From the NCBI GenBank assembly GCA_027922465.2, contig BQMF02000050.1, positions 186,001 to 250,000 of the forward strand: a stretch of DNA of 64,000 nt. The letters are read 5' to 3'. This DNA is from Turritopsis dohrnii (Eukaryota; Cnidaria; Hydrozoa; Anthoathecata; Oceaniidae). Shown here piece by piece: positions 29,960 to 60,708 of the stretch; position 1 is the first letter of the stretch, and the number at the start of each line of letters is the position of its first letter. A program made the position numbers and the translations under genes. Below the pieces are notes generated by a model. The model searched no databases. It was not told where the DNA came from and saw only the letters and a list, made by a program, of their open reading frames with translations.

Positions 29960-31036
29960 GATCTGGATTTAAATGATCTTGAAGAATCTGAGAAAATCGA
30001 TCAATTTATTCTTTCACAATGTGGATGCCATTACGGACCAGACAAATCGTGCTGTTCCAATGTTTTTTCAAGGGATGTCATAGAGTTTTCTCGAAATCAT
30101 ATGCGGGAACTAACTACACAAGAAAAAGACGCATTTATTTTTTCATTTTTATTTTCGTCTCGTCCTCCTAAATTCGAAGGAGAGTGGAATCAACACATCA
30201 TTTATTCTATTCATGGCCATGAGGTTTGCCGAACTACTTATCTTTTCATGCTCGATGTCTCCCTGAAGAAATTTTCAAGTCTTTGTAAGCATTACGATGA
30301 TTGTGGAGTGACACCTAGACTTCATGGCAACACAAAACGTTTACCGAAAAACGCATTTAATTATGAAACCAACCACCACGTTAAAACCTTCATAGAAAAT
30401 TATGCGGAAGAGCATGGGGTATTATTACCAGGTAGGATACCTGGATGTCGTGATCAGTCAGTAACTCTGATATCTTCTGCAGAAACCAAAAAGCATATTT
30501 GGTCGTTTTACAAAGATACATGCCTTAAATCAAATAAATTGTATGTATCATACGTCCAATTTACACTTCTGTGGAATGAGTTGACCCCTTCAATAGTCGT
30601 TGCAAAGCCCATGACTGATCTGTGTGCGACGTGTCAGGGAAACAACAACTTGATATTTCGAAGTGCCAATAAGACATTGGAAGAAAAGTCAGTCACCTTG
30701 CGAGAACAGATGCAGCACCTGGAAATAGCAAAACAAGAACTTGAATATTACAGACTGCAATGCTCCAAGGCAAAAGTTGACCTAGAAAATAGGACATTTT
30801 ACATCGCTCAGTCCAAAAATGAACCTTGTTCTTTTAGTGGTACGGCTCATTATAGCTGGGACTACGCACAGCAATTACATTACCCACAAAACCCCTTTCA
30901 ACCGGGGCCAATTTATTTTAAAACCCCACGGAAATGCAATGTATTTGGCATTTGTAATGATGGCAGCAATATACAAACCACATACCTCATTGATGAAATT
31001 GTTAACACTGGCAAAGGTGCTAATGCCACAATATCA
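29960..31036 (+). pseudogene. TE-Y transposase, N-terminal part
   Basis: The frame opens after a TAA at 29957 (probably an exon start) and runs to 31036, where the Helitron begins. It shows Cys-rich QCGCHYGPDKSCCSN, the repeated family block YVSYVQFTLLWNELTPSIVV, VAKPMTDLCATCQGN, a coiled coil (EEKSVTLREQMQHLEIAKQE), and GNCNVFGIC-type and DEIVNTGKGANATIS segments. I recognise it as a widespread transposase-like family in invertebrates, with an RNase-H-like core continued downstream, but cannot place its superfamily. The C-terminal part resumes at 46285 with the codon phase preserved. Small frameshifts in the downstream part make it a pseudogene. Confidence 0.68.
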
Positions 31037-32042
31037 TCTTATTATACTAATTCGCGTTGTGCATCCCACTTTTATTTTAGAGAGTGATATATTTACTTTT
31101 CTTTTAACGGTCAAATCCTTCTTATTTTTTCCCTTTTCGTCGTAAAACCACGAAGAAGTGACAGACACTTTTTTTAATGTTACGTAATCTACGTAATTTA
31201 AGTGTGACGTTTCTTTCGGGAGACCAACACAATGCGCATAAACTACGTAGAGGCCGAGTTTTCTAATGTTACGTAATCAGTATACACGTAATGTAAGCGT
31301 GACGTTTCTTTCGGGAAACCTATACAATGCATTTATTTTGATTTATTTTGATTGTTTTGATTGACGTGATGCTTTTGAACCAATCAAAATTGTTTTCCAG
31401 AATCGGGCAAACTATAGCAACCAATTCGTTCAGAACGTAAACAAATTAATTTTTAATTTTCCAGTAAGGACGCTTGCGAAACAATATATTGTTTGTATAC
31501 ATTGTTTGTATTATCCAAAGATTTAGAGCGAAAGATCAGGTAAACCGTTTGTTTAAAATTTAAAAATAGGCTACTTACTGGATAATGTATAATTATTATT
31601 TTTTTTAATTAGATCATTTTGTTGTTTTTGTGTTGTTGTGGTTGCTGCCCTGTTGATGATCGAGAGACAGGTTTTGTTTATACTTGCAAAATATACGTCA
31701 ACGAGGTGAGATCTCTTTATTTGTTTTCATAATAATTTAAAAATGGTAAACTTTACGGCGGTTTTCCGTGTTTATCCCCAGTGTTCCTAAGAACTGTTTA
31801 TCCTTTGTTTATGTTTAAAACCTATTGCTCTTTCTGTCTTCTAACACGTTTTTTATCTGCATTCCAGGTTCGTTTTTTTCAGTTTATTTTCAAAAGAAGA
31901 AGTTAGTTCTTAGATAGAAAGGTTTGTTGAAGATTATTATCACAGTTTCGACTTTTCTTTTTATTTCGTATTAGTCAGTTTCCTTATGCTTCTGCCTAGA
32001 TTTGTGCTGTTTATTCACAGTTGGTAGCTATTTCTTTCTCTT
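31037..32042 (+). promoter_or_regulatory. Helitron A 5' region with tandem TTACGTAA blocks
   Basis: The first 150 bp are the conserved Helitron 5' arm, including TTTTAGAGAGTGA and TTTTCGTCGTAAAACCACG. At 31174-31231 and 31265-31330 there is an imperfect tandem duplication, each copy holding TGTTACGTAATC and GTGACGTTTCTTTCGGG. TTACGTAA and TGACGT are bZIP-type site shapes. No coding exon was found here, so the region probably holds the promoter of the Rep/helicase gene. Confidence 0.5.
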
Positions 32043-35000
32043 TTGTTATTAGTGTTTCTGAACTCTGTGATGTTTAATATAAGAGGCACTAATATTATTC
32101 CTGGCTTCCAAGCAGTTTTTAGGAATGGTCAGTTTGTGCTCCAGCCACCTGATCAGCAGCAAATTCGCTCTGTAATTCAGCGTCGGCATGCACATGAGGA
32201 TGTGGCTGAGGCAAGGCGCCAACAGCTTCAGCAAAACATTAATATCCAGCCACCAGATATTCAGGCAGATAATGAACGTCTTAGAATCAATGATACCGAA
32301 AGACGTGTTCAGTATCGTCAGGTTGAAGATGAGGGTCAAAGATCAGCCCGGCGAAATGCAAATGTTCGTCGCATGAGGGCTAGGCGGGCTAATCAACCCT
32401 TGCATCGTGCTGCTCGGCAAGACCAACTGCCTGAGCTACATTATCTTGGTGCCATGGACAAAGTCTGTCAGTTTTGTGGTGCCAAGATGTTTGTTGATGA
32501 AACTAATTTTAAGTGTTGTCACAATGGTAAAGTTCATTTAGATAACATTTTTTATCCTAATGACCTTAAAGATCTTTTAGTAGGTGATAACAATCAAGCA
32601 AAGAACTTTCAAGAAAATATTCGAAAGTTCAACAGTTCGGTTGCTTTTGCTTCTATGGGTGCGAAATTGGCTGTACCGCCAGGTCGTGGTCCACCAGTTT
32701 TTCGTATCAATGGCCAGGTATGTCACCGAACAGGTAATTTACACCCACCGCCAGGTGTTCCTCCATCATATGGTCAACTATATATTTATGATGGTATGGA
32801 TGCATTCAACGAGCGAATGGCAAGACCAGAAAATCAAGGTTGCTCCCCCGAAGTCATGCAAACTTTGCAAGATATCATTTTACGGGAGAGTCCTTATGCA
32901 GCTGCTTATAAACACATGAGTGAGGTAGAAGCAGAGGAACTGCGTCGCGCAAATGAACAGAATCGCCAACCATCTGAGGTAAGTGGAAATAGATATTTAC
33001 TAAATACTGATCTTTCAACTGCTTTTGATAATTTGCTTTTGATTTTCAGGTAAGAATGCACTTGAGAAGTGGCGGTGACAGGCGTCGATACAATCTACCT
33101 CATCATGATGAAGTAGCTGCTGTTTTTGTTGGTGAAGATGGTGCACCACCATTGGCTCGAGACATTGTTGTTTACCCTCGAGATAGACCATTGCAGGATT
33201 TGCCTGTTCATTCACCTAATATCGATCCAATGGTGTATCCTGTATTTTTTCCAAGAGGAGAGTTGGGTTGGAGTTCTGAAATTCCTCATGTAGCAGAATA
33301 TGCAACAGGCCAGCATTGTCGTACTACCATGTTGCAATATTATACTTATAGGTTTGCATTTAGAGATGCTTTTAACCCCATCTTAAAAGGTAAAAGATTA
33401 CTTCAACAATTTGCTGTAGATTGTTACTGCAAAGTTGAGTCCGACCGTCTTAATTACATTCGTCGAAATCAGGGTAATTTCCGGGTTGAGCAATATCAAG
33501 GGCTCATTGATTATCTTGAAAATGTTGCAGAAAACCGTGGCCTTCAAGCAGGCAGACCGGTGATTCTTCCTTCTTCTTTTCAGGGTGGTCCAAGGGCCAT
33601 GCAGCAGAATTATCAAGATGCTATGGCCATGGTAACTAAAATGGGCAAACCGGATTTGTTTTGCACATTTACCTGTAATCCAAAATGGAAGGAAATCACA
33701 GAAAACTTAGATAATGAGCCTGCTCATTATCGTCCTGATTTGATTACACGTGTTTTCAATTTGAAATTAAAAGCACTTTTGGAGGACATTAATAAAAATG
33801 GTGTTTTGGGGAAAGCCATTTCCCATTTGTATGTTATTGAATTTCAGAAACGTTCTTTACCTCATGCTCATATTCTTATCCATTTAGCACAAGAGGACAA
33901 ACTACGTAATGCTGATGACATTGACAGCTTAATTTCTGCTGAAATACCAGATCCTGAACAGGAACCTGAACTTCATAATGTCATCAAATCATGTATGATT
34001 CATGGTCCCTGTGGGAATGCTAACCCTAATGCAGTTTGTATGGGAGATGATGGCAACTGCACCAAGGATTTTCCAAAGCGATTTTGTGAAGCAACCCAAA
34101 TGAATGCAAATGGGTATCCACTGTATCGCAGACGTAACAATGGCCGTACAGTGAGGGTAAGGAATGTGGACTTTGATAATCAATGGGTGGTTCCATACTG
34201 TCCGTGGTTGTCCAAGAAGTATAATGCTCACATCAATTTGGAAGCATGTACCACAATCAAAAGTGTAAAGTATCTCTTTAAATACATTTACAAAGGACAT
34301 GATCGTGCTAATATCGAGATTAACGAACGTTTGGAACATGACGAAATTAAAACGTTTCTGGATGCTCGATATGTCAGTGCGCCAGAAGCATTATGGAGAA
34401 TATTTGAGTTCTCTATGCATGAAAAATCGCATACTATTAAGCGATTAGCTGTTCATTTACCTGATCGTCATCAAGTTTATTTTAGAGCTGGTGAAGAAGA
34501 GGAAGCTGCTGAAGGGGCATTGAATGATAGTCACCTTACAGCATGGTTTAATCTGAATGTAGAAGATCCTGATGCTCGGCAGTATCTTTACTCACATATT
34601 CCGTATCATTATGTCTTTCATGGCAAAGAGAAAAAATGGCAAAAACGAAAAAAAACATTTAAGCCTATAGTCGCTCGGTTATATAATGCACGACCGTCAG
34701 AAGGAGAACGATTTTTCCTTCGAGTTTTGTTGCTGCATGTTCCAGGCGCTACTTCATTCGAATATCTACGTACTTTTGATGGAGTGGTTTACGACACATT
34801 CCGAGAAGCATGTACTGCCAGACGTCTTCTTCAAGATGACGAAGAGTGGCACAATACATTGGAAGAAGCATCAACCTTTCAGATGCCTCAACAGCTTAGA
34901 CAACTGTTTGTCACGATTTTGACACACTGCGAACCCTCCAATCCTCTGGAGTTGTGGAATACATTCAAGGGGCATCTGTGCGAGGACTACGCTTGAACAT

Positions 35001-36571
35001 TGGCTGTTGCTCAAGCAGAACAAAGGGTTTTGGGTTACATTGATAATATCCTAAAACAATTTGGTATGTCGTTAACACAGTTTAATCTTCCAGAGTTGGT
35101 TCAGCAGATCCCTGAGGAAGAAGTCGATGTGAATATTTACATTGACAGGGCCCAGCAGGTAAGGCCTCAGCTTAACGAACAGCAGTTAGTTGTTGCAGAT
35201 GCGATTTTGTCTGCTGTTTCAAATGTGCGCAATGGTTTAGCACAACTTGAAACATTGTTTTATCTGGATGGACCAGCTGGCACAGGTAAAACATTTACAT
35301 ATAACTATGTTATTACAGCATGTAGAGCCAGAGGTTGGAAAGTTGCTACTGCTGCATTCACAGGTATCGCAGCCACTTTATTATCTGGCGGTTGTACATT
35401 GCATTCCTTATTTCGTTTGCCTGTTCCTGTTTTAGAAAACAGTGTATGTAACATAACGCCGACATCTAAACATGCAGAATACCTTCGAAGTATTGACCTG
35501 TTTCTGATCGATGAAGCCACAATGGTTTCTACGCACATTTTCCATGCTATCGACAGACTGCTTCGTGACATTTGCGGCAGTGACGCACTTTTCGGTGGAA
35601 AGGTACTGTTGTGGGGCGGAGATTTTCGTCAGTGTTTGCCAGTTGTTAAGAAAGCAAAACCAACTGATGTTATTGAAGTTTGCTTGACAAGTTCTCCTAT
35701 ATGGGCATCAGTGGTAAAATACTCACTTACCGAGAACATGAGAGCCAGGCCGGAAGAACAAGAATTCTGTGCTTGGTTATTACAACTTGGTAATGGTGAA
35801 CTGCCAACAAAACAAAATGAACCGGCCAAGGGTTCTATCGAAATCCCCGATTGTTGCGTTGTTCCCCACAACACTTCAATTATATCGGTGATGTATGACG
35901 GATTGGAACCTCACGAATACGCTTCAACAGCCATTCTGACACCAACAAATGAGCAATCATTGATCATTAACAATGAGGTGTTGGAAAGATTGGAAGGAGA
36001 TGCAATTTGTTATTACAGTGCTGATGAAGTGGTATGTGATGATGAAGACGAGCGGCAAAATTATCCACTTGATTTTCTGAACAGCATAACACCTTCCGGT
36101 ATGCCTCCACATTGTTTGAAACTTAAAGTTGGGGCTATCATAATGCTTTTGAGGAATCTGAACATTAGGAAAGGTCTCTGTAATGGCACCCGCTTGATTG
36201 TTCGGGAATTATCTCATAATTTTATTAAAGCTGAAGTTTTGACAGGGTCAGCAGTTGGAGAAATCATTTTCATACCTAGGGTTGAACTGTCACCTTCAGA
36301 TACAGGTATGCCTTTTATATTGAAACGCAGACAATTGCCTATCCGTTTGGCCTACTCTTTCACTATTAACAAGAGTCAAGGTCAAACATTTGATAAAATT
36401 GGTTTGTTTTTGCAGAGGCCGTGCTTTTCTCATGGTCAGTTATATGTGGCATGTTCCAGGGCAAAGGCATTTGATAATGTGAAGATCAAAGTTGCTGCTA
36501 CTGGGAAACAAGGTTATATCAATGGAAAGATGCATACTCAAAATGTCGTCTTTCCACAAGTATTACAGTAA
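32043..36571 (+). pseudogene. Helitron Rep/helicase, one intron and one in-frame TGA
   Basis: Exon 1 is 32043-32978, a phase-0 intron (GTAAGT...TTTCAG) spans 32979-33049, and exon 2 is 33050-36571. Together they encode nearly 1,490 residues. A zinc finger (CQFCGAKMF...CCHNGKVHL) starts the protein. The Rep nuclease follows with the HUH motif LPHAHILIHL and the two-Tyr motif YLFKYIYKGHD. The helicase is Pif1-type with Walker A GPAGTGKTF, Walker B LFLIDEATM, GGDFRQCLPV, and the C-terminal INKSQGQTFDK and YVACSRA motifs. It nicks and unwinds for rolling-circle transposition. A TGA at 34994-34996 separates Rep from helicase; the frame is the same on both sides, so it is one nonsense mutation, for example CGA to TGA. 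Everything else is intact. Confidence 0.9.
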
Positions 36572-36923
36572 CTTAATTCTGCATATCTTTTGTTTTCATC
36601 TATATACTTGGTATGTGCAAAGGATTTGGATTATGAGTTTCAAAGATACCGGAAAAGTAAAAGTATCAGTTTCCGGTTGTACATTGATCGTATCGTCACT
36701 CATTTGGGAGTGATTTGCATTGCAGTTGTTTAAAAGCAGCTTTTCCTCTATAGCGTCATGACTTTTATATTGTCATATATACTGTCATGAGTTTTCCTAT
36801 AGTGTCTGTTGCTCAACTGTTAATGATTGATATTATAGTGTTAATTTGTTAATTCAATGACATTTTCTTTGTTGCAATGCTGAATATGGATGTAAAGATA
36901 TGCTTTTATAGTTACTTTTTTGC

Positions 36924-37206
36924 CTAAAAAACAGTTTATTTCTGTATGTTTGTTTTTTAGGCGGAGTACAAGTCCCATTGACTTACGTTCACGTCGTGTA
37001 CTCTGTTACCATGGGTTGTGCATGCAATTGTTTTATTTTATAATTCATTAACCATGAGAAAGTTTCTCTAACCTTTTATTCATTACTAGAATCAACAGAT
37101 ATTAAGTGCTAACCTTTGCAGGCACAAACCATGAACCAAAAGTCAGGGCATTCATTCTGTTATCTATTTGATGTTAGGGAATTAGTATAATAAAAATTAC
37201 ATTATA
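36924..37206 (+). other. Conserved leader block upstream of the micro-exon gene
   Basis: A 12-bp hairpin (GCCTAAAAAACA / TGTTTTTTAGGC, 36924-36961) runs into a block of about 55 bp starting GGCGGAGTACAAGTCCC and ending CTCTGTTACCATG. The same block, nearly unchanged, occurs at about 47238-47292 before the second micro-exon gene copy, preceded there by a TTTGTTTAG acceptor-like sequence. The block contains GAGTACA and TGTACTC arms that could pair. A second shared piece is AAAAGTCAGGGCAT. It may be a 5' untranslated exon, a structured RNA or an element terminus. Confidence 0.5.
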
Positions 37207-38301
37207 ATGGCGACTAAGGCACCCAATGGTAATTTTCATCTTGCTACTTTCTTTATTGTGAATTTAAAATAAAATATCATTTTTTTCATTGTTTTCTTAT
37301 AGAAATTCAACAACAAGTGCAAGATGAAGGTAAGAAAGTGTTTATACTTTCCAACATGCTGAAAATAAATAAAGCAGCCCTTATCTATATGTTTGTTTAT
37401 GTTATTTTAGTTGGCGATGATGCTGCTAATAATGGTGGGCGTTCATAATAGAATGAATTATAAATTTAAAACAAGTTGCTTATTAAGACTGTATTCTTTT
37501 TTATTTCAGATGTAGAATCAATGGATGAGGATGGTAAATGAATTTATTTATTGAATGGAATAACATTATTGTGTTAGAATTACTATAATACTTTCATTCT
37601 TTTCAGAGGAAAGAGGAGTATTTGCAGATGGTAAAAATAATAAAGATTTGCTTTATGACATTTTTTGCATTTAATATATTTTCCATTTATCTATGTGCTA
37701 ATTACTTTAATTAATGTCTCCCTTCCTTTTTTAGAACAACAGGAGGCTGAGGAAACTACTAACCGTAAGTAACACAAATATTTCAGATAAAACTCAACTG
37801 AATTTATTCTTGGAAATAATAATTTTCATCCTCAATAGCACATTTTTCATCTGTCTATGTGTTAATTCCTTTAATTAATGCCTCCCTTTCTTTTTTAGAA
37901 ACAAATGCGCCTAATGAGCAAACCAACCGTAAGTAACACAAATATTTCTGATAAAACTCAACTGAATTTATTCTTGGAGATATTAATTTTCAGCGTCAAT
38001 AGCAAGTGGGTTGAATTTTTAGCCATTTCATAAGCCTTCGTTTCAATATTTTCTTTTCTTAGACAATCAAAAGCCTGATAAATTTGACAATCGTAAGTTA
38101 CATAAACAAATTATTTCATATTAATTATCTTAATTCATTAATAATAATTTTTGTTATTCTTACATCATAGTGACACGAAAAGCATTCAGGACATACAGAA
38201 AAACCCACCCAGGACCGCAGTCATCCCGCGCGTTCTGGGTGTGGCGCAAAAACGGAGGGAGAGACCGTGAAGGGTTTATCCCCCCCACAAAAACGATTTA
38301 A
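37207..38301 (+). CDS. Nine-exon micro-exon gene of Helitron A, unknown function
   Basis: Exons: 37207-37228, 37303-37329, 37411-37434, 37510-37533, 37607-37630, 37735-37764, 37899-37928, 38063-38092, 38171-38301. All introns are phase 1 and all internal exons are multiples of three (24, 27 or 30 nt). They join without a stop into 113 residues. The first two thirds are acidic and Gln/Asn-rich (DVESMDEDEERGVFADEQQE). The last exon encodes a basic, aromatic domain, FRTYRKTHPGPQSSRAFWVW followed by RKNGGRD. Exons 6-8 are 30 nt each, and exons 6 and 7 share their downstream intron sequence, so they arose by segmental duplication. The donor of exon 3 (GTGGGC) is weak. The pattern resembles schistosome micro-exon genes in architecture only. 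No family is recognised; the last exon might be a small DNA-binding motif. Confidence 0.7.
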
Positions 38302-39708
38302 AAATAAAAAAAAAATTCAAAATTATAAAGAAAGTAAATATTCTGGGCTTAGCACCAGTTATTTTGTAGAAAACGTTTATTTTAGGTAGTTTAGTTTTTA
38401 TATGGCATGGAACTACCATACATTGTGCTCAAACGTTTTCATTAAAACTAATTTTCTTCATTTTGGGAAACATGTTTGGCTGGAAGAAAAATGTCATGAA
38501 TAAGTTATTCAAGTGAATGGCTGATTAACACCCGTTGCCCATAACGCCGCTAGATTTCTAAAAAACCGCAGTAGGAGAATTTTTTGTTTTCTTAGATCCA
38601 TTCTATTATACAAGGTGTAGAAATTTACGATAGAGCTTCCACTAACAAGAAATGCATTGGTGTTTAATTAGTTATTCACGGTCAGTGTATGGTAGTTCCA
38701 TACCATCGTTATTTATGTTAATATTTGTTGTTTTCAGTTAGAATAAAAGTTGTTATATAGTTCTTTTGACCTTTATTTCACCATCCTGCAGCCTGTTTTG
38801 TGAAGTGACATTACCTATTATAGTTTAAAATGTCTTTGCCATTTTGAGAGATAACCAATCATAGCTTTAGTTTAGTTTTGTTCATTGAGGACAAAACTCT
38901 ACATTGCCCATATGTTAAAGATAATAAACTATTATATGGAGTATGCTGATGTCAGCAGAAATGGAATAGTTGAAAAATGGTCTTGGAACGAGCGAACTGT
39001 AAATAAATAAATAAATCACATCTTCTTTGCTGACTAATAAAATTGATTAACTGCTGATACACGTTTTTCTCGATCTTATGATAGTTCATTATCTTTAATG
39101 AAAAATGATTTGAATGAAATAGATTTAGGGAAAAACGTTCATTATCTTTAACTTATATTTATTCAGATTATTTAGAGTTATAGTATTGAAGTCAACTTGG
39201 TGTTGGTAGTTCACCTTTCTTGGCAGTATTCTGTGGATAACGGTATCTGCTGGAGTCTAGGTAGCGTTGTCAAGGTAACTGTGAATGAAAGTTTAGTTCG
39301 TTAAATTGAGATATATTGTCGGCTGCACATTTCGGATTTTAAATTCGATCTTATATTTATGTTTTTTTAGATTCTTTTGGATTCTTTGGTTTCTCTTACG
39401 AATGATATCATGTCATTTCCAGAAGATCCGATAATTCAAACTACGTTAAAAGATGCAATGCACTCGCTATTCACCGAGAATTATTATTTCCAAGAATAAA
39501 TGGATTACACCAAAAAACGCATTGGAAGACGGTTAACGAAGTCGATATACACTTTTGCAAAAGTGATTAAAGATAACCTTTTTTTGGTTTATTTATTTAT
39601 TTGTTTATGCGATCTTTATAGTATTGTCAACACTTTTTCATGAGAATATATGTTTCTGCTGAACATTCTATGACATTTTTTGCTCACCTTTATAGTCAAC
39701 ATTTCCAC
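38302..39708. other. Helitron A 3' non-coding part, left of the ISL2EU insertion
   Basis: AT-rich with no gene. It holds the inverted repeat listed at 38404-38707. A GACAAAACTC...ATTATATGGAG stretch and two related AGGGAAAAACGTT/GAAAAATG blocks near 39098-39140 look like local duplications. The junction with ISL2EU is at about 39709. Confidence 0.5.
38404..38707. repeat. Inverted repeat around ACTACCATACA, downstream of the micro-exon gene
   Basis: GGCATGGAACTACCATACA at the left pairs with TGTATGGTAGTTCCATACC at the right. The same pair of motifs, closer together, follows the second micro-exon gene copy at 50416-50512. It could be a MITE or a conserved 3' structure. Confidence 0.65.
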
Positions 39709-39811
39709 AATTCCCGGTTCCCCTCTTTCGACAAAACCGCAATGCATTCTGGTAGTTGTATTCAACGCAAAAAGAGAAATCACAACATCAACTAGTGGAG
39801 CACAAATAACT

Positions 39812-41356
39812 ATGTTAAATTCAACTACAAATAACAGCTTTTTTGAAAGCTCCATAAATACACCTTCGACTTCTTATTTACAAGTCACTCCTTGCGAAGA
39901 AGATGTTTCAAATCTGACGTCAAATGTCTTAAATAGCAGAGGAGGAGGGATAACATGCTGTGTGCCTCACTGTTACAACAACTCCAAACGAAATCCTGAC
40001 CTTAGTTATTATGTTATACCTAAAGATCCAGAACTACGTAAGAAGTGGTTATTCAAAATTAGCAGAAAGGATTTTCAACCACGTTCGTCACACAGAGTTT
40101 GCTCAGAACATTTCTTAGGTGGGAAGAAGACCTACATGAACAACATTCCCACTATAGTGCCCAAGACAATTAAACCAGTAGAAACTAAGCCAAGAGCAAC
40201 TAAAAATAGCTCTGGACTCAGAACAACTCTTTTTTCGCCTGTTAGACGTACTACAGAGCAACTTGAGAAACAGCTTTCACACGAGGAAGAGCTGAACATT
40301 CAAGTGGCAAACTTGACAATCGAACTTACAAACTTGAAAACAAAATTAGAGAAGAGGGAAGAGGAACTACAACAAACAATCAATAACATAGGATGTGAAC
40401 TTCAAACTAACAAATTTACATTAGACAGATTCAAACACAACACAGCACACTTTAAATTTTACACTGGTTTTGAATCCTATGCCATATTCCAAGCTGTTTT
40501 TGAATATTTGCAACCTGCAGCAAGTAAATTAATGTACTGGTCTTCAAAGACAAACATGGAAAACAAACTCTCAGCTGATATAAATAAAAGAGGCAAGAGC
40601 AGAACATTATCTGCTGAGGAAGAGTTTTTTATGACACTGGTTAGACTTAGGTGTGGATTTCCACTGGAGGATATGGCAGTCAGATACAATTTATCAACTA
40701 CACATATAAGTAGAATAATTATAACATGGATAGATTTTTTACATTCACAGTTGAGAATGCTACCAATATGGGCCAGTAAACAAACTGTCATAAATACAAT
40801 GCCGCAATGTTTCAAAACTTCATATCCTTCAACAAGAGTCATATTGGACTGCACAGAAATTTTTACAGAAATGCCAACTTCTTATCGAAGCCAGTCGGCA
40901 ACATTTTCCAGTTATAAACACCACAACACTGCCAAAGGTCTTGTTGGAATAGCACCTAATGGTGCAATAACATTTGTATCAGACCTCTATGCAGGCAGAG
41001 TTTCCGACAGGTGTTTAACACAAGACAGTGGAATATACAAGTTACTTGAACCAGGAGATAGTATAATGGCTGATCGTGGCTTCGATTTGGAAAAAGATTT
41101 GCCAGACACAGTTAACCTCAACATACCACCTTTTTTGAATGGAAAGTCACAACTGAGCATTACTGAGGAGAATGAAACACGACAAATTGCAAAAGTGAGA
41201 GTTCATGTCGAGAGAGCTATTGAGCGAGTAAAAAACTTTCGAATTTTACAAACTGTCTTCCCGTTATCTATGGCACCAGAACTTAATAAAATATGGGTAG
41301 TCTGCTGTTATCTAGTAAACTTTTTACCACAACTAATACCAGATAAGGATGAATAA
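39812..41356 (+). CDS. ISL2EU THAP-domain DDE transposase
   Basis: The start chosen is the ATG at 39812, 514 codons before the stop, because the open frame further upstream lies in the terminal repeat. Residues about 50-120 are a THAP zinc finger (CCVPHCYNN..., KKWLFKI, HRVCSEHFLGG). A coiled coil follows (EKQLSHEEELNIQVANLTIE). The catalytic DDE_4-type domain has GFPLEDMAVRYNLSTTHISR as its helix-turn-helix-like part, then VILDCTEIF (first Asp), IMADRGFDL (second Asp), and VHVERAIERVKNFRIL (Glu). The frame is intact. It should bind the element ends through THAP and cut them with the DDE domain. Confidence 0.88.
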   Translation: MLNSTTNNSFFESSINTPSTSYLQVTPCEEDVSNLTSNVLNSRGGGITCCVPHCYNNSKRNPDLSYYVIPKDPELRKKWLFKISRKDFQPRSSHRVCSEHFLGGKKTYMNNIPTIVPKTIKPVETKPRATKNSSGLRTTLFSPVRRTTEQLEKQLSHEEELNIQVANLTIELTNLKTKLEKREEELQQTINNIGCELQTNKFTLDRFKHNTAHFKFYTGFESYAIFQAVFEYLQPAASKLMYWSSKTNMENKLSADINKRGKSRTLSAEEEFFMTLVRLRCGFPLEDMAVRYNLSTTHISRIIITWIDFLHSQLRMLPIWASKQTVINTMPQCFKTSYPSTRVILDCTEIFTEMPTSYRSQSATFSSYKHHNTAKGLVGIAPNGAITFVSDLYAGRVSDRCLTQDSGIYKLLEPGDSIMADRGFDLEKDLPDTVNLNIPPFLNGKSQLSITEENETRQIAKVRVHVERAIERVKNFRILQTVFPLSMAPELNKIWVVCCYLVNFLPQLIPDKDE

Positions 41357-41499
41357 ACAGGATATAGATTTTTGATGATATACTTGTATACTTTTATACT
41401 CATCCTTATTCAGTATGTATTTATTTATGTACATATATGAAAATGTATAACACAAGTGTCACTAATGCTGTAACAGAAAAAAAATCTAATAATATATTT

Positions 41500-43224
41500 C
41501 TAACATGAAAAAACTCTATCTTTTATGAATTCAAAATAGAATTTAGTCAGTTTGGGTAACATCATAGTTTCCCATTGCATCTTGTTAAACTGTATTGTTT
41601 CTTTATGCAAGTCAATATTTGTATAAACAACAAAATCTAACTCCAATAGTCCAGTAATAGCCATCACGCCTTGGCATTGAAAATAATAGGGATGTTTTTC
41701 TTTCAAAGATGAACAGTTATTATCAAATGACAAAAAGAAATTCTTATCAGAGCACGCTTCTTCTATTGTCATGTCTTTTTTGGAATACGGACACTTCACT
41801 TCAATTGCTCTCAAATTTCCATCACTGGATTCATAAATACCATCAGGGCTCGCTCCTAACCAAGGCCACCTAGGATTAATAATGAATCCACATTTCTCGA
41901 TAGATATCCCCGACTTTGCAGCATATTTTTCCATAGCAACTGTTTCGTTTTGTTTCCCCCATTCACAAGCAGCAGATTTAAATTCTTTTACTTGGAAAAT
42001 CTTTTGAAGTATTGACTTTGGGAATATGGATTGACGTCGGTTCAAAACTAACCCAAAATTTGATGCGGTAAGGCGTTTCTTGCGTTCTTCAAACCAAACT
42101 GAAGAGGCAGCCTGGCTCTTTGTTTTATCCTCAATAGAATGGATTTCCTGTTTCGTTACCTTTAAATGCAAATTAACAAAGTCAATTTCATTTCCAGACA
42201 ATTTGTTAAAATCGACATCTTCAGATGGCATCATATTATGCAATAGCTTGGGAATGGTTGTAATCAATCTTTCAGGACATTCTTCACTTATTTTCCTTCG
42301 TTTGTATTGTGTAATTGATGTATAGTAAAAGTCACAAGGTTCATAGTTATTGCCTTTCAAAAGTTCAGCAAACACAACTCCTTTTCCCATAGTCAACAAA
42401 TCATAACTCAGCTTTTTTATTTTACTGCAATCAGCTTTGTGTGCAAAAACTGGGGTCGCACAATACTCTCGATCTCCAGAAACAATAGGTCGTTTTCGAC
42501 TGTTTTGCAAATCTTTTGAAAGGTCTGCCTTAGCAAATGTCAGCTCTGAAAACTTCATTGGAGCATTGTTCTTAATCTCACCAGGAACATGCCACTTTTG
42601 CAACAAATCTGTGCATGTTTTATCATCAGGCACACATTTAACATCCATTTCTTTAAACTCTACAAGTTGATACAGAGCAGTAGCAACATGTTTGCAACAC
42701 CCTCCAGCTCCAGCTTTACAAGTACATTTGGCATAAAAAATATCACCAGTTTTTTGGCACAGGTGTATATAAACTGTATATTTGTCTTTTTTCATGGAAG
42801 CTGCAACAAAACACTTGATTAAAAAACATAAGTTTTCTGCTTGTACATTGGGTTTCACCATCAACCTTTTCACATAGTTCTCTTTAAATAATTGATAACC
42901 CATTACTTTGTGTTTATGCGATCCTCGTGGTTTGTTATCGAAACTTTGACCAAGTATCATGTAAGAATGTATTCGTTCATGAGTTATTTTTGGCAAGAAA
43001 GACAAATCTGTTGTCCATTCCACAATATTCTGTACAAGAGTTTCTTCATTCGTTTTGGACGATTCTTCATTTGAAATCTCCCTGAAAACAGGCTTGGGAC
43101 CCACGCTAGAGCTTTGAAAAAAACTAGGGTCCATGTTTCCAGTTGTCAAAGTAAGATCAATGCTTGTATCAAAATCAATAATATTGCTCATTTTCCTCTT
43201 TCTTCTACTACTTTCTCCTCTCAA
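41500..43224 (-). CDS. YqaJ-type nuclease with SWIM zinc finger (ISL2EU second gene)
   Basis: Open frame of 574 residues, start at 43224 or at the Met 11 codons later. A SWIM-type finger (CTCKAGAGGCCKHVATALYQ) lies near residue 170. The C-terminal half is a lambda-exonuclease/YqaJ domain: SSVWFEERKKRLTASNFG, WGKQNETVAMEKY, GASPDGIYES, and IEVKCPYSKKDM, keeping the acidic and Lys residues expected for the active site. It runs convergently with the transposase, 143 bp between stop codons. YqaJ nucleases accompany ISL2EU transposases; their exact role in transposition is unproven. Confidence 0.87.
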   Translation of the reverse strand: MRGESSRRKRKMSNIIDFDTSIDLTLTTGNMDPSFFQSSSVGPKPVFREISNEESSKTNEETLVQNIVEWTTDLSFLPKITHERIHSYMILGQSFDNKPRGSHKHKVMGYQLFKENYVKRLMVKPNVQAENLCFLIKCFVAASMKKDKYTVYIHLCQKTGDIFYAKCTCKAGAGGCCKHVATALYQLVEFKEMDVKCVPDDKTCTDLLQKWHVPGEIKNNAPMKFSELTFAKADLSKDLQNSRKRPIVSGDREYCATPVFAHKADCSKIKKLSYDLLTMGKGVVFAELLKGNNYEPCDFYYTSITQYKRRKISEECPERLITTIPKLLHNMMPSEDVDFNKLSGNEIDFVNLHLKVTKQEIHSIEDKTKSQAASSVWFEERKKRLTASNFGLVLNRRQSIFPKSILQKIFQVKEFKSAACEWGKQNETVAMEKYAAKSGISIEKCGFIINPRWPWLGASPDGIYESSDGNLRAIEVKCPYSKKDMTIEEACSDKNFFLSFDNNCSSLKEKHPYYFQCQGVMAITGLLELDFVVYTNIDLHKETIQFNKMQWETMMLPKLTKFYFEFIKDRVFSC

Positions 43225-43393
43225 CTAATATATTTCGCTTGTTTACGCTAAAACCTTAGTCGTGTACTATGGAGATAATCAAAATAATGACAGAGATGCG
43301 AAAATTTTGTTTTAATAGCGCGCCAAAAGCAGTTATCTCCATTAATCAATACCATGTCATATTTCGAGAGTTTTTTCGCCGGAGAAACTACTA
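43225..43393. other. ISL2EU right subterminal region
   Basis: Short non-coding stretch upstream of the YqaJ gene, probably holding its promoter. It contains CTATGGAGATAATC and CAGTTATCTCCATTAATC, which form an imperfect inverted pair around GGAGATAA. Confidence 0.5.
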
Positions 43394-45580
43394 TCTTATT
43401 ATAATAATCCGCGATCGTGTGTCACACTTTTATTTTAGAGAGTGACATATTTGGTTTTTTTCTCACGGTCAAAACCTTCTTATTTTTTCCCTTTTCGTCG
43501 TAAAACCACGTCAAGGCGAGAGTGTTTTTTTTGATTTTCCGCGATTAGTATATGCTCCTCCGTTTTGTTATTTTTGGTTTGCGCAGTGGAAATCAGCCGA
43601 AAAACGTCTTTGGAGGAGTGCGAGCAATGCAATTTCTTCGTTCGAAATTTGTCAACGATCATTTCGTGAGCAAGAAACTTCGCGAAGAAGACGTGTTTCT
43701 TTTTGTATAGTTGCACAAAATTGAATTGAATGTTAAACTTTTATTGTTATTGTATTTTAGATTAATAAAAGAACATGTGTAAGTGATTAGTTGTTTGTTT
43801 ACAATGTGAAAGCATGGTGAGAATACAGAAGAAGTGCAGTGACGTTTTTAAAAATTGGCTGTGCAGAATGAACGAACAGGTCTGTACGAAAGTATTATTA
43901 TAAAACTTTTATTTTAATCATTAATAAAAGAACAGGTGACACATTGGTAAGTAAGTTATGTATGTATTTTAATGTTTGTTTACGTTTTAGTTATCAAATA
44001 TCGCTATACAGAAGAAAGCAGTTTGATATTTGATGGTTTTAATTTAGTTTTGAAAGCTTTGAGTGGATGTCTCAGTTATTCTGTCGTTTAGTATGTGTAT
44101 ATGCTGCTGGATGAAAAGGAAGATGAGAGAAATTTGTTTTGGTAACGCGCGCTATTATTACATTAAAAATGGTCCTACAGCTATGAATGTTTTTATTTCT
44201 TTTATTTGTCTGTCACTGTTATGCATTGAAATCTTTTTCTTTATTTATGCCTTTCAGTTTCAGGAAACTATGCTGGGAAGTAAATCGAGTGTAATTAATT
44301 TGTTTACAGGTATGAAATATAGAAAGAAAAGAGTTTAGAAGTGTTTGATGATAATGGCTACAGAACATAATGATCAATAATATTGTTTACTAACATGATG
44401 ATGTGAATTGGTATTGAAAGGTAAACCAAAGTTAAAATAGTATCTATTTAGTTAAAACACAGTTAGTATTAGTGGATAAATAAAGGATAAGAGGGATGTT
44501 TACTGTTGTGTTTTGAATTTTCCAGAGAGGAGCTTTGAACTGAAATAAAAAATGGCTTCACATATGTGAATGTTTTCATTATGTTAAAAATTCTTTTGCT
44601 ATACTAATTCTGTCATTACGTTTGTGTTTTTAATTATTATTTTTAAGGTAAATATATTTTCAAAGTTTCTTTTAGTTTGTTTTGTTTTTCTTTCGTTTTC
44701 GTCATAGTATGATTAGGTTTTTTGTATATATATGTTTTTTGAATATTTTCATCTGTTAAAATAGAAATGAAGCACATGATGGGTTAAATTATAATGTTGA
44801 GAGGGTTAGTTAAGAGAAGAATGGATTATGTATTTAAGAAGATCATTAATTATTACTGTGCAATGAAACTGTCCTACAAAAAATAAGCGTTATTGGTTGG
44901 TTTTTTCTTAAATATATTTTATCATGTTTATGCATTATTTTGTGTTATGGTAAATCGTTTACGTACTATGCATGGGTATATAACTTTGGCATTATGATTT
45001 TATTTGTGACTTTATCTTCTGGGTAAATTTTGATTCTTAGTTTATTGTTTTTAGGATAAATGCGTACTTGAATTTAATTTTTTTTTCTTTTTTTTGTTGT
45101 TGTTTATTTCAATATTCTTATAGCATGATCAGGTTTTCGGTATTACAATTGAAATATTATTCTTTTAGGTAATAATAAAAAAAGCATAAAGAAATGAAAC
45201 TCATGGTTTTAATCATGACGTTGATGGTTTTGGGAAGAACAGACTATATATCATTTCAAAAATTCATTAATGGTTGCAGTCCAGTATTAACTTTGGAACA
45301 AAAGAAAAAGTTGGAAGGTATCAATTTGTTTTGAATTAACATTTTGTAATGTTTGGTTTCGTATGTCTGGGTAAACAGTTCTGTGTTATATATTGCCATT
45401 TTTTTTACATTAAAGTTACTTCTCTTATGCGTATAAATATATATTCTGAGCCATGTTGCTATTCGTTTCTGTTTTTAATCTTCTGAATGTAATAACAAAT
45501 TAATGCCTATAAAAAAGTTAAATTCTGCGACAGAACGCATACTGAACATGGGTGGCGAGCGACGCCGCCTGGGCGGCTAG
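43394..45580 (+). mobile_element. Non-autonomous Helitron N1 (family of Helitron A)
   Basis: Begins TCTTATTATAATAATCCGCG after A43393 and ends GCCGCCTGGGCGGCTAG before T45581, a perfect 5' TC / 3' hairpin-CTAG Helitron with the A|T target. Its first 150 bp match Helitron A. A nearly full-length inverted copy lies at 47801-49885. No gene longer than about 90 codons is present, and I find none credible. It sits inside the right arm of the ISL2EU element. Confidence 0.88.
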
Positions 45581-45793
45581 TTCAACTAATATTGTTAAAT
45601 ACAACTACCAGAATGCATTGGGTTTTAGCGAAAGAGGGGAACCGGGAATTAAAACCCGTACACAATTTTTACCCGAGTTAAAACCATCCCATACATTTTT
45701 TATCAGTTTTTGGAGCCAATTCCTTAATTTAATTTTTCGTGAACTGGACGCATACTGAACATGGGTGGCGAGCGACGCCGCCTGGGCGGCTAG

Positions 45794-46284
45794 TCTAAAT
45801 ATTAATAGCCGATTCTCTGTCTGTCTGTTTGTTTGTTTGTAAGTCACACAAAATGGTAGATGTGAACTGCGAAAGAGAGTCAGCAATGTAAGATCACACA
45901 TAAATTATAACTTTTCTTGTGCGCGACGTCAGTGTGAAACCATTGTATTGAGACCCTAATCAAATGCGACGTTTAGGGAAAATTATCTCCGTAACCAATA
46001 GGGATAACTGACGTTTTTTGAAGTCCGCGATACAGGCGATGGGGTGACGAAAAATTTGGGTCTAATTTTTTTTGGGGGACGGGTCTGTGACGTCATCAAA
46101 ATATTTGATCAAGGATATCTCCGTAACGGTTGGCCGTAGCAAAACGTTCCCATACATTTTTTTGATCAGTTTTTCGAGCTCTACAACATGGGCACACTTA
46201 TTATTGCGAATTACTTAATTTTATTTTTCGTGACCTCTACGCAGGCTGAAGATGGGCGGCGAGCGACGCCGCCTTGGCGGCTAG
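45794..46284 (+). mobile_element. Short Helitron C, directly abutting Helitron A
   Basis: Begins TCTAAATATTAATAGCCG and ends in the same hairpin type (GCCGCCTTGGCGGCTAG) before T46285. A CTGT/GTTT microsatellite lies near its 5' end. No coding capacity. Its 5' TC touches the CTAG of Helitron A, and the other side joins TE-Y coding sequence in register, so it was probably the first Helitron to enter TE-Y. Confidence 0.75.
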
Positions 46285-46981
46285 TATATTCATGATTACT
46301 TCACTGAACATGGAATTGGTGAACAAACTGCAAACATGCTGATAACTGTGCTGGTAAGTTAGATATTATTTTGAGAAACAATGGTAATTTCAAGATAAAC
46401 TCTTGTTAATCTTAGCACTTGTTTAATTTTTCAAGGCCAAAACAAAAACAACTACGTACTTTGGTATCTGGTTTGGCGGACTATGGTTGGATTGCATCGC
46501 CAAATTGAGTATTCCTTCATGAGTGTTGGTCATACCAAATTCAGTTGTGACCGATGCTTTGGTGTACTCAAAAAACGAACATCAGTAACTGGATTGTGGA
46601 CTTTGTACGACATAGCACAATGCTGCAACAATTCTGGCTCCTGTTATCGAGCAAAACTAGTAGGAACTCATGATGGTAGAGTATTAGTGCCAACATATGA
46701 CTGGGCGTCAATGCTGTCAAACTACTTCAGAAAAATTGACAATATTACCTCATACCACCATTTCCGTATCAGTCATTTAGACCCTGGGACTGTATAGTCT
46801 GGATGCAGAACCAGTTATAGTTAGCACCTATAAAAAAAATAATATTCCTAATCAATTCAAACAACCAGATATCATACAACCACAAGGATTTACTCCTGCA
46901 AGAATTAAATATCTGTATGAGGAAATCCGTCCATTTTGTGCAGAAGGAACAGATGTTGTTGCACCCAAACCAATATCTTAA
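46285..46981 (+). pseudogene. TE-Y transposase, C-terminal part
   Basis: Continues the frame left at 31036 (YIHDYFTEHGIGEQT). After a small frame change it reads CKHADNCAG, an intron follows (GTAAGT...TTTCAAG, about 46354-46434), and then GQNKNNYVLWYLVW, which is a HADNC-GQNKNN RNase-H-like catalytic block. Next come FMSVGHTKFSCDRCFGVLKK and VLVPTYDW...YHHFRISHLDPG. A frameshift near 46790 leads into the last segment (GFTPARIKYLYEEIRPFCAE), with a stop at 46979-46981. At least two frameshifts mark it as inactive. Confidence 0.65.
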
Positions 46982-47237
46982 CCACCTTATCAAAAGCTTC
47001 TCGTAAAATGGTAAAATCAAAGTTGCCAGTGTAACATTATATAACATCATCTGTATGTTATGCCACTGTTGATTCATGTTGTGGCTTTTATAGTTGCAGG
47101 CACTGTTGATTCATGTTGTGGCTTGTTCTAAGTGCAGCTATAGTATTGGCCACTGTTGATAGTTGTTGTGGCTTATTTTAAGTGCTTATTTTTGCAACTT
47201 TGTACCTAATGAACAGCCTGTAGATTCTTTTTTGTTT

Positions 47238-47415
47238 AGGTGGAGTACAAGTCCCATTGACTTACGTTCTCGTCGTGTACTCTGTTACCATGAATTGTGC
47301 ATAAAGTAAACTTTGTGCTCAGTTCATGAACTAAAAGTCAGGGCATGTGGCATATTATATCTCTAGGAGTGTAACTTTTGTTTTATTCTTCATTTTAGTG
47401 ATAAATAATAACAGA
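47238..47415 (+). other. Second copy of the micro-exon gene leader
   Basis: GGTGGAGTACAAGTCCC through CTCTGTTACCATG repeats the block at 36958, and AAAAGTCAGGGCAT repeats the second shared piece. The two loci are not alike immediately upstream, apart from a T-rich TTTAG. The 46982-47237 stretch before it contains three imperfect copies of a CACTGTTGATTCATGTTGTGGCTT repeat, shown here by its shared core CACTGTTGAT...TTGTGGCTT. Confidence 0.55.
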
Positions 47416-47507
47416 ATGGCAGAGCTTGGCAGTGACGTTGATAAAGAATGTAAGTTTTCTTATCATCTACCATCAATTTTAATGTTATTTACGAGTATCA
47501 CGTTATA

Positions 47508-47800: not shown

Positions 47801-49885
47801 CTAGCCGCCCAGGCGGCGTCGCTCGCCACCCATGTTCAGTATGCGTTGTGTCGCAGAATTTAACTCGTGTAAAAGTTTCTTTTCAGGCATTAATTTTTTA
47901 ATTCATTTCTTACATTCAGAATATCAGAATATTAGCAACATGGCTCAGAATATATATCTATATGCAGAAGAGAAGTAAAAAACTTTTGTGTAAAAAAATG
48001 GCAATATATAACACAGAACCGTTTACCCAGACATACAAAACCAAACATTGAATAACATTACAAAATGTCAATTGAAAACAAATCGATACCTTCCAACTGT
48101 GTTTCTTTCGTGCGGAAGTTACATTATACAGCAACCATTAATGAATTTTTGAAATGATATATAGTCTGTTCTTCCCAAAACCATCAACGTCATGATTAAA
48201 ACCATGAGTTTCATTTCTTTATGTTTTTTTTATTATTGTCTAAATAAATAATATTTCAATTGTAATACCGAAAATAAAAAAAAAAAACAAACAAAAAACA
48301 AAAAGGAAATTCAAGTACGCATTTATCCTAAAAACAATAACTAAGAACAAAAATTTACACAGAAGATAAAAAGTCACAAATAAAATCATAAAGCCAAAGT
48401 TATATACCTAGGCATAGTACGTAAATGATTACCATAACACAAAATATGCATAAACGCGATAAAATATAAACTTATAAATAAAAGTTATAAATATAAAATA
48501 TAACCCATCATGTGCTTCATTTCTATTTTAACAGATGAAAACATTCAAAAAACATATACGAAAAACCTAATCATGCTATGACGAAATCTAAAGAAAAACA
48601 AAACAAAGTAAAGGAAACTTTTAAAAATATTAACCTTAAAAATAATAATTAAAAACACAGCCATTTTTTATTTCCAGTTCAAAGCTCCTCTACTCTGGAA
48701 AATTCAAAACACAACAGTAGACATCCATCTTATCCTTTATTTATCCACTAATACTAACTGTGTTTTAACTAAATAGATACTATTTTAACTTTACCTTTCA
48801 ATACCAATTCACATCATCATGATAGTAAACAATATTTATCATGTTCTGTAGCCATTATCAAACACTTCTAAACTCTTTTACTTTCTATATTTCATACCTG
48901 TAAACAAATTAATAACACTCGATTAACTTTCCAGCATACTTTCCTATTGTAAACATACACTTTCTATTTGTTTTCTACTGCAATTTCACTACCATTTTTA
49001 TACAGTGAAAGACATAAAAAGGCTTTCTTCGTAACTTCATAACTGTGGAGCCATTTTGAAATAAATAAAATAAGGAACAGTTCGTAACCAAAACAAATCA
49101 GTAAACTAAACGAAAGAACTCATATAATAAGATATCTATTCAAAGCTTTAATCTTTAATCTTTAATCTTTAATCTTTCAAAACTAAATTAGAACCATTCC
49201 TTACTGTGTAAATAAACATCATTTTGTTCTGCATTTCTTCACTACACTTTCTTCTGTATAGCGGTATTTGATAACTAAAACGTAAACAAACATTTACATA
49301 CATTTAAATACAAATACATATACCTAACTTGTAATAAAAGTTTTATAATGATACCTTTTGTTCGTTCGATCTTTCTGCAGCTAATTTTTAAAAACTTCCC
49401 TGCACTTCTTCTGTATATCTAAATATGATTTTTCATTGTAAACAAACAACTAACTCACTTACACGTGCTACCCAATACCTTAACAATACCTTCGTGCATG
49501 CAAACCTGTGTTTCTTCGTCAGTTCTTTCGTCGATTTGCTGCCTAAAACAATCAAATTTAAATAAAAATATTCGTAAAGAAACACGTCTTCTTCGCGAAG
49601 TTTTTCCTCACGAAATGATCGTTGACAAATTTCGAACGAAGAAGATTTGCATTGCTCGCACTCCTCCAAAGACGTTTTTCGGCTGATTTCCACTGCGCAA
49701 ACCAAAAATAACAAAACGGAGGAGCATATACTAATCGCAGAAAATCAAAAAAACCGCTCTCGCTTTGGCGTGGTTTTACGACGAAAAGGGAAAAAATAAG
49801 AAGGTTTTGACCGTGAGAAAAAAAGTAAATATATCACTCTCTAAAATAAAAGTGGGATGCACAATCGCGGATTATTATAATAAGA
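47801..49885 (-). mobile_element. Non-autonomous Helitron N2, inverted partner of N1
   Basis: On minus it begins TCTTATTATAATAATCCGCG at 49885 and ends with the GGCGGC hairpin and CTAG at 47801, with A before and T after. The interior matches N1 in inverse orientation over long stretches, for example TATGTCTGGGTAAAC and the TTCTGTGTTATATATTGCC region. It contains four tandem TTTAATC-type heptamers at 49147-49177. No credible gene. Confidence 0.88.
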
Positions 49886-50415
49886 TATATATATTTTTCT
49901 AACTTATTTAATTTACTTGTAAATATTTTAATCTTTTGAATTATAATAAAATGTTTTTATTTTAGAGAGTTTGTTGTAAATATACATTCATCTTTCATTT
50001 AGCTGTGGTAGTAAACAGTGACGCTTATAAAGAATGTAAGTTTCCTTATCATCTACCATCAATTTTAATTATATAATGTTTAAAGCTGTAAAAAACTTTT
50101 ACGTCAGTTTTAATATCATCTTCACTTTGTTTTTTAACTAATACATAAATCAACTATCTATTATAGATTCATACAAGGATTTCCTGTTGTACCGGAAAGA
50201 GCATCCTGGCCCCGATCCCAAAAGGCCTATAGAGCATGGAAAAGGCTCGGGGGCCAGGACCACCCTAACTTTAAGTGGGTGGACAAGCAACGAGGAGGGA
50301 GGAAGTGGACACACTGTTATTTATAACAAGTATACGCTGTCATCAGTTTTCAATTCATAAGTGAGAACACAATATAATAAAGTCTCACTAAAATGAATTG
50401 GAAACTGATGATGGT

Positions 50416-55744: not shown

Positions 55745-56920
55745 GGTCAGTTTGTGCTCCAGCCACCTGATCAGCAGCAAATACGCTCTGTTATTCAGCG
55801 TCGGTATGCACTTGAGGATGTGGCTGAGGCAAGACGCCCACAGCTTCAGGAAAACGTTAATATTCAGCCACCAGATATTCAGCATGTCGCATCAGAAAAT
55901 GAACGACTTCGAATGAATAATGCTGAAAGACGTGTTCAGTATCGTCAAGTTGAAGATGACGGTCAAAAGGTAGCCCGGCGAAATGCTAATGTTCATCGCA
56001 TGAGGGCTAGGCGGGGTGTTCAACGAAATGTTGTTCCACCCTTGCATCGCGCTGCTCGGCACGATGAATTACCTGAGCTAAACTATCTTGGTGCCATGGA
56101 CAAGATCTGTCAATTTTGTGGTGGCAAGATGTTTGCTGCGGAAACTAATTTTAAGTGTTGTCACAATGGTAAAGTTCATTTAGATAACATTTATTATCCT
56201 AATGACCTTAAAGATCTTTTAGTAGGTGATAACAATCAAGCAAAGAACTTTCAAGAAAATATTCGAAAGTTCAACAGTTCGGTTGCTTTTGCTTCCATGG
56301 GTGCGAAATTGGCTGTACCGCCAGGTCGTGGTCCACCAGTTTTTCGTATAAATGGCCAGGTATGTCACCGAACGGGTAATTTACACCCACCACCAGGTGT
56401 TCCTCCATCCTATGGTCAACTTTATATTTATGACGGTATGGATGCATTCAATATATGTAACTGCAATTATATGTAACTGCATATAAACACATGGGTGAGG
56501 TAGAGTTCTTCGGGTTGAACAATATCAAGGCCTTATTGATCATCTAGCCAATGTTGCGGAAAATCGTGGCCTTCATGCAGGCAGACCAGTAATTCTACGT
56601 TTCTACCTAAATTATCAAGATGCTATGGCTATGGCCACTTAAATGGGAAAACTAGATTTGTTTTGCACTTTCACGTGCAATCCCAAATGGCGAGAAATTA
56701 CTGAAAATTTGGATAATGAGCCATCACATTATCGACCTGACTTGGTTGCACGTGTTTTTAATTTGAAATTGAAATGACTCTTAGAGGATATTACTCAAAA
56801 TGGTGTTTTGGGGAAATCCATTTCGCACCTGTATGTTATTGAGTTTCAGAAACATTCTTTACCTCATGCACATATTCCTATCCATTTAGCTCAAGAGGAC
56901 AAACTGCAGAATGTTGATGA
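55745..56920 (+). pseudogene. Truncated Helitron Rep gene, deletion derivative
   Basis: Matches Helitron A from GGTCAGTTTGTGCTCCAGCC (32128 region) at high identity through the zinc finger and YGQLYIYDGMDAF. It then jumps to the region around 32906-32930, then to about 33483, and ends at the equivalent of 33920. At least two internal deletions, a frameshift and several stops (for example TAA at 56640) break it. Both edges are abrupt: the left edge joins unrelated sequence, and the right edge is where the viral element begins. The HUH region has the altered LPHAHIPIHL. Confidence 0.85.
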
Positions 56921-58745: not shown

Positions 58746-58783
58746 TATTTAAAAATATAATCCTCTATTCTCTAATACAAGAA
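58725..58783. promoter_or_regulatory. Divergent promoter between two viral genes
   Basis: A 19-bp direct repeat ATTTAAAAATATAATCCTC occurs at 58725-58743 and 58748-58766, spanning the start codon of the minus gene and most of the 38-base gap. Such a tight gap must serve both genes; the repeat may be a binding site for a viral transcription factor. Confidence 0.5.
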
Positions 58784-59344: not shown

Positions 59345-59387
59345 ACCGAGATAAAAAGGAATAATTAATTATATATCATAATTAATA

Positions 59388-60704: not shown

Positions 60705-60708
60705 TAAA

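Follow-up and report, generated by a model that had tools for sequence, protein, structure and literature searches.

A predicted micro-exon gene carried by a multicopy Helitron family of Turritopsis dohrnii

Micro-exon genes (MEGs) have been reported as apparently restricted to platyhelminths, and all schistosome MEG products are described as carrying a signal peptide (PMC4350168). Among transposons, autonomous RPA-bearing Helitrons are described as having an extra gene besides the Rep and helicase genes (Rep/Hel) (PMC4683698), and the locus described here resembles them in this respect. The subject of this work is a predicted nine-exon gene at positions 37207-38301 of a 64,000-nucleotide (nt) stretch of the Turritopsis dohrnii genome (contig BQMF02000050.1 of assembly GCA_027922465.2, positions 186,001 to 250,000, forward strand), which in its full length is referred to as the window. 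We are highly confident that this gene belongs to a multicopy Helitron family as a standing accessory gene, located between the helicase gene and the 3' end of the element. That it is coding, selected, element-borne and recombining was established at the level of sequence comparison.

Exon chain and carrier Helitron

The carrier has the canonical traits of a Helitron: a Rep and a PIF1 helicase, a 5' TC, a 3' hairpin with CTRR and an insertion between A and T without target duplication. The gene lies within its ends, between the helicase stop (36571) and the nested elements described below, which agrees with the Helitron-borne location claimed in a preliminary description of this DNA. Exons 1 to 5 and 8 derive from the exon-chain search and the phase-free finder, and the last exon from the splice model, the genome copies and the ratio of nonsynonymous to synonymous divergence (dN/dS) of its domain. 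The relevant features, including two open reading frames (ORFs), are the following.

31037-46284, plus strand, Helitron carrying the gene, with the 5' end TCTTATTATA and the 3' end GGCGGCTAG, between A (31036) and T (46285)
33056-34996, plus strand, Rep (Helitron_like_N) ORF, Pfam PF14214, E 9e-58
35000-36571, plus strand, PIF1-type helicase ORF, Pfam PF05970, E 2.2e-54
36955-37026, plus strand, conserved block upstream of the gene and end of the shared chassis, 72 of 72 nt identical in 40 of 40 scored copies (636 candidates)
37207-37228, plus strand, exon 1 with the start codon, 22 nt
37303-37329, plus strand, exon 2, 27 nt
37411-37434, plus strand, exon 3, 24 nt
37510-37533, plus strand, exon 4, 24 nt
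37607-37630, plus strand, exon 5, 24 nt
37735-37764, plus strand, exon 6, 30 nt, first unit of a 164-nt tandem duplication
37899-37928, plus strand, exon 7, 30 nt, second unit of this duplication
38063-38092, plus strand, exon 8, 30 nt
38171-38301, plus strand, last exon, 131 nt, basic domain beginning TRKAFRTYRKTHPGP

All introns are of the GT-AG type and in phase 1 and the lengths of all internal exons are divisible by three, so that duplication, loss or an intronic crossover stays in frame; the gain or loss of exons without frameshift, proposed beforehand, follows directly from this anatomy. The spliced gene comprises 342 nt and encodes 113 residues without a stop. Every number given in the preliminary description (nine exons, eight of them of 22-30 nt, all introns in phase 1, 113 residues) was reproduced.

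As AT-rich DNA abounds in GT and AG, a reader might simply have picked such a chain, and some of its splice sites are indeed weak. For the chain search the thresholds were set at the weakest site of the real chain, which they thus suit, and the terminal exon had to span 40 codons or more. It recovered exactly the claimed chain of eight micro-exons, whereas 200 dinucleotide-preserving shuffles yielded none (181 shuffles) or one (19), and never two. Across the window, 80 of 82 tiled stretches on both strands gave no or one micro-exon and the remaining two overlap the gene. With the terminal exon lowered to 15 codons the shuffles still reached none (105) or one (95), and two other stretches of the window reached two. 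When the acceptor threshold was raised to 3.5, only four micro-exons of the chain were left, because the acceptors of exon 3 and of the last exon are weak; the shuffles again gave none or one. The exon finder used for the gene models of further copies permits phase 1 only, and in every one of seven copies, which represent seven types, its result exceeded that of all 60 shuffles. A separate finder, free in exon length and phase, was run on seven copies and placed 53 of 54 introns in phase 1 without this being imposed (seven types, window included). Taken together with the conservation of the domain between types, these controls led us to reject a chance origin, whose probability is negligible, and the predicted nine-exon chain is confirmed as real beyond chance.

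A conserved tail resembling YxGLxTxxFxENVxFR extends the last exon in 17 of 26 different last-exon readings of the first family. By reading of the sequence, such a tail is present downstream of the last exon in the window copy as well but out of frame; the C-terminus of its protein is therefore probably truncated.

The conserved block is maintained at the DNA level (36955-37026, and again at 47228-47302) while the coding sequence behind it diverges, and in our reading it can be drawn as a three-way stem. Rfam gave three matches to the block, the best at E 1.2, and no family; for the whole window no match reached the gathering threshold.

Recurrence in the genome and exchange of cassettes

The assembly from which the window derives (435,911,712 bases, 891 contigs) was searched for further copies. 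With the 113-residue query 645 candidates were obtained, of which 150 were scored; all had E values of 2.4e-11 or lower and 145 were free of stops. The helicase query gave 2407 candidates, and the 82 that were scored showed 95-100% identity. Among the matches listed, a last exon lies within 8 kilobases (kb) downstream on the same strand of at least 63 of these 82 helicases, at 1288-4519 bases, and behind none of the 82 in the reversed orientation control. Similarly, at least 33 of the 40 scored blocks have a listed last exon downstream, and upstream of at least 73 of the 150 scored last exons a helicase or block is listed. The preliminary description had proposed to look for a conserved last exon behind the helicases of other Helitrons, and one was found behind at least 63 of the 82 scored helicases and in all 20 copies that were read at greater length. 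Viral contigs gave no match with the helicase, alignment A1 or the 25-base block pattern, and neither did the genome_contigs set.

These 20 copies are part of the 30 best last-exon places and were extended to about 10 kb. In all of them Rep/Hel is 95-98% identical to the window (89% in one copy) up to positions 37026-37031, and the alignable pieces behind this border are 68-86% identical. The transition is abrupt: directly after the helicase, 443 nt match the window at 98-100% in all 20 copies, and the next 192 nt at only 66-69%. A 3' Helitron piece near 45667-45771 matches again at 90-95% in 13 of the 20. A nearly uniform chassis hence carries variable cassettes. Gene models were obtained for 20 of 21 copies (the window and 20 loci; one locus, L031, was dropped for an insertion between block and gene), and the cassettes were sorted by identity into the types A (eight copies), B (three), C (six), D (one), E (one) and W (the window). 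Type C has two competing last acceptors, and its domain is identical with either.

The cassette types do not follow the chassis tree, and the comparison of trees indicates that cassettes are exchanged between copies. In the 1.7-kb helicase end types A and C are on average 98.3% identical to each other, compared with 98.0% within A. On the chassis tree, four changes are required for type A, four for C and three for B, of which well-supported branches force at least three, two and three, respectively. All six type labels together need 10 changes compared with a shuffled mean of 10.6 (86 of 200 shuffles as low), whereas the domain tree needs five, the minimum, which none of 200 shuffles reached; its grouping of type B is weakly supported (79/30). 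An individual exchange can be located in locus L041: as far as position 1058, in exon 3, the informative sites (43 of 43) all follow the type A copy L036, and from 1132, in intron 3, 269 of 276 follow the type B copy L040. Judged by these sites, L041 is the result of one crossover inside the exon array, and its predicted protein is an in-frame hybrid of exons 1-3 of one type and later exons of another.

The window contains a second copy of the gene.

47228-47302, plus strand, conserved block of copy 2, 92% identical to the first block over 75 nt
47416-47449, plus strand, first micro-exon of copy 2, 34 nt, phase 1
47801-49885, minus strand, non-autonomous Helitron inserted in copy 2 before the 33-nt micro-exon
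50003-50035, plus strand, micro-exon of copy 2, 33 nt, phase 1
50167-50326, plus strand, last exon of copy 2 with YRKEHPGP, frame broken within
38403-38706, plus strand, inverted repeat 3' of the first gene (arms 38403-38425 and 38682-38706), present also 3' of copy 2

Copy 2 is decayed, as read from the frame break in its last exon and the non-autonomous Helitron inside the gene. As proteins the last exons of both copies match (tblastn, E 6e-7 when the query was the copy-2 domain, read across its frame break; two pieces of the copy-2 domain at E 0.001 and 0.052 with the copy-1 exon), and at the DNA level no match was found at E 1e-3. Similarity between the copies exceeds chance from block to ATG (0 of 300 shuffles as high); on the 3' sides it was matched by nine of 300 shuffles, and upstream of the block it is at chance level (191 of 300 as high).

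The domain of copy 2 stands for a second subfamily. As query it gave 287 candidates; 150 were scored, 148 of them at E values up to 0.01, and none of 21 places checked occurs in the first list of last exons. L051, the one member read as a unit, is one unit of a 3902-base tandem array with the block, seven or eight micro-exons and the last exon. The unit has no blastn match with Rep/Hel of the window, and in it a Helitron 3' end minus its last G abuts a 5' end. Comparable junctions occur twice in locus L046 (reverse-complemented, 8134 and 9025), where CTAG is directly followed by TCTTATTATA. Genome-wide the 3'-to-5' junction pattern was found 468 times with at most one mismatch and never in the reversed control; such junctions are a feature of the whole Helitron family and were not assigned singly to the micro-exon gene. 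Such joined ends are likely head-to-tail products of rolling-circle transposition. Evenly spaced last exons of the second subfamily mark tandem arrays, at C257:196436-233399 with a spacing of about 9.25 kb and at C11:1466013-1473897 with 3902 bases.

Copy 2 is located behind a DUF7869 gene and not behind a helicase, a position that would suit a gene unit which is itself an independent transposon and inserted repeatedly into Helitrons. This explanation was rejected as extremely improbable on the constant position relative to the chassis, seen in the 20 extended copies and at 63 of the 82 scored helicases, and on the absence of terminal repeats around the gene copies of the window; moreover, the L051 unit has Helitron ends.

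Product, selection and origin of the gene

The predicted protein consists of an acidic arm (20 D/E versus 4 K/R in 69 residues) and a basic C-terminal domain (2 D/E versus 11 K/R in 44 residues), and the basic end described beforehand is thus borne out. On inspection, with no predictor run, neither the N-terminus MATKAPNEIQQQVQDEVGDD nor those of the other types contain a hydrophobic stretch that could represent a signal peptide. The spliced window product has a single Pfam match below the cut-off (RRN3, E 0.045), no RPA or OB-fold domain was found in Pfam searches with the last-exon sequences, and the PDB search found no relative. In the protein database the first two queries gave no match, and an alignment of 11 sequences gave one, P0001 (E 9.3e-8), the one relative of the domain outside the T. 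dohrnii genome. It comprises 84 amino acids on an 844-base ENA contig, and its domain is preceded by a stretch that we read as resembling a pyrimidine tract with acceptor. The basic domain may bind nucleic acid and thereby serve rolling-circle transposition as a cofactor or counteract silencing, and the acidic arm, with its variability, might meet a fast-changing partner such as host silencing or rival elements; we regard this division of roles as rather doubtful.

Between types, the alignments indicate that the C-terminal domain is under purifying selection (37 codons, dN/dS 0.08-0.37 at dS of 0.13 to about 2 in 15 type pairs). The micro-exons behave differently from their surroundings. Exons 6 and 7 of the window differ at 13 of 30 sites and their flanks at 12 of 133 (p 2.8e-5). 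Nine 30-nt exon units gave 36 pairs, 10 of which were dropped for a flank difference above 20%; in all 26 kept pairs dN lies above flank divergence by a factor of 1.4-10, although these pairs are not independent and the cut-off favours faster exons. For exons 2-4 the exon rate is higher in 13 of the 15 comparisons listed. Introns are possibly held back by splicing signals, so that faster exons need not mean diversifying selection. For these three reasons, diversifying selection on the micro-exons is suggested and not proven.

In this setting the in-frame exon array could serve as a device that diversifies the acidic N-terminal arm by recombination, and alternative splicing of the micro-exons is possible from their structure. 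A built-in device of protein diversification, which would combine the symmetric array, cassette exchange on a homogeneous chassis, diversifying selection and an arms race with host silencing or rival copies, falls in our judgment just short of an even chance. Alternatively, the mosaic may have arisen without any selection for diversity, if the Rep/Hel chassis was made uniform by gene conversion or a recent spread and old cassette lineages simply persisted. The cassette introns and the 3' noncoding sequence have diverged as well (80-85% to the window in most copies), and in the young type B duplicates the exon has changed little (2 of 30 sites versus 7 of 125), both as expected for plain homogenisation. 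Exons that outpace their own flanks, in the unit pairs and in exons 2-4, argue against it, and we consider it a tentative possibility, somewhat below even. The broader proposal of the preliminary description, a diversified accessory protein of the element, is supported, as the gene recurs behind helicases and its protein differs strongly between copies.

Helitrons are known for gene capture, and a host micro-exon gene family might have been captured and carried as a passenger, with selection having acted in the host gene and not for the element. The existence of a second large subfamily and the position of copy 2 would fit such an origin, as would the 77 of 150 scored last exons without a listed helicase or block upstream. 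In all 20 extended copies, however, the gene keeps one position, following the conserved block; its domain is still under purifying selection between types, L051 has Helitron ends, and no copy clearly outside an element was identified among the 21 places read at length. Host capture is therefore regarded as unlikely.

Several observations besides those on copy 2 and the unpaired last exons weigh against a standing accessory gene of the Helitron. The choice of the 20 extended places was biased towards genes behind a chassis, and the genome-wide partner counts are lower bounds from the matches listed, with 19 of 82 helicases and seven of 40 blocks lacking a listed last exon downstream. The DNA similarity of the exon/intron regions of copies 1 and 2 is not above that of shuffles (194 and 245 of 300 as high). 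None of the 11 last-exon sequences matched Pfam at E values up to 1, which leaves them without a known domain. Two structure models are weak (mean predicted local distance difference test scores of 66.7 and 65.6) and agree only on the first helix.

A first suspicion from the window that the gene is part of a DUF7869 element was given up for the Helitron on the genome search. The DUF7869 gene (30101-31036 and 46286-47000) is split by the Helitron and the decayed copy 2 follows directly behind it. When the flanks are joined without the Helitron, the ORF 30101-31036 and the sequence from 46285 continue in one frame, and by this reading the Helitron is inserted in a transposase-like ORF. A DUF7869 match (E 2.5e-12) was obtained in a piece further downstream of 46285; the joined part upstream of that piece gave none, and the continuity of the flanks therefore rests on the open frame. 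A literature search for DUF7869 found no paper. Two further elements lie within the Helitron, the first of which resembles ISL2EU.

39709-45650, strand not assigned, nested element that contains THAP/DDE_Tnp_4 and YqaJ genes between 58-nt inverted ends of 93% identity
43394-45580, non-autonomous Helitron interrupting this nested element

Further downstream, a fragment of another Helitron of the carrier's kind lies at 55745-56920 (79-89% identical to 32127-33918), several ORFs at 57603-62376 resemble by eye a Maverick/adintovirus-type element, and a match similar to a Helitron 5' end is located at 62344-62425.

Comparison with known systems

Two systems offer parallels to single traits of the gene. 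Venom genes show accelerated exon change, with exons diverging faster than introns, and exons outpace introns here as well; venom genes are host genes, whereas this is a transposon gene. Lambdoid phages possess mosaic immunity regions in which sharply different cassettes are carried on a near-identical chassis. The arrangement is the same here, but it is eukaryotic and intron-based, and no immunity function is attached to it.

In the literature searched on Helitrons or transposons and micro-exons, no paper on a transposon-borne micro-exon gene was found, an absence limited to that coverage. If the present reading is true, micro-exon genes are not solely host inventions, since a mobile element would keep one, with its domain under purifying selection and its exons reshuffled among many copies. 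The effect of symmetric exons on the speed of protein change would become testable within one genome with near-identical flanks as control, and the gene would point to a step of Helitron biology that requires a fast-changing protein.

The likeness to schistosome MEGs, raised in the preliminary description, stands for the architecture and not for the signal peptide. As in schistosome MEGs, tiny symmetric exons make up most of the coding region, here 211 of 342 nt with all introns in phase 1, and the variable part changes fast, as reported there for mature MEG proteins (PMC4350168). The gene differs from MEGs by the lack of a visible signal peptide, by its location in a Helitron and by its basic conserved C-terminal domain (PMC4350168). 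The resemblance is architectural, with no sequence relationship or membership shown.

The nearest parallel for the biology is provided by the RPA-bearing Helitrons, of which the gene of the window is an analogue and not a demonstrated member. Their extra genes encode RPA, a conserved single-strand binding protein, unlike the gene described here with its fast-changing micro-exon arm and no RPA or Pfam match (PMC4683698). Comparable to L051, the Mothra family is an element without Rep/Hel that keeps only the extra gene (PMC4683698).
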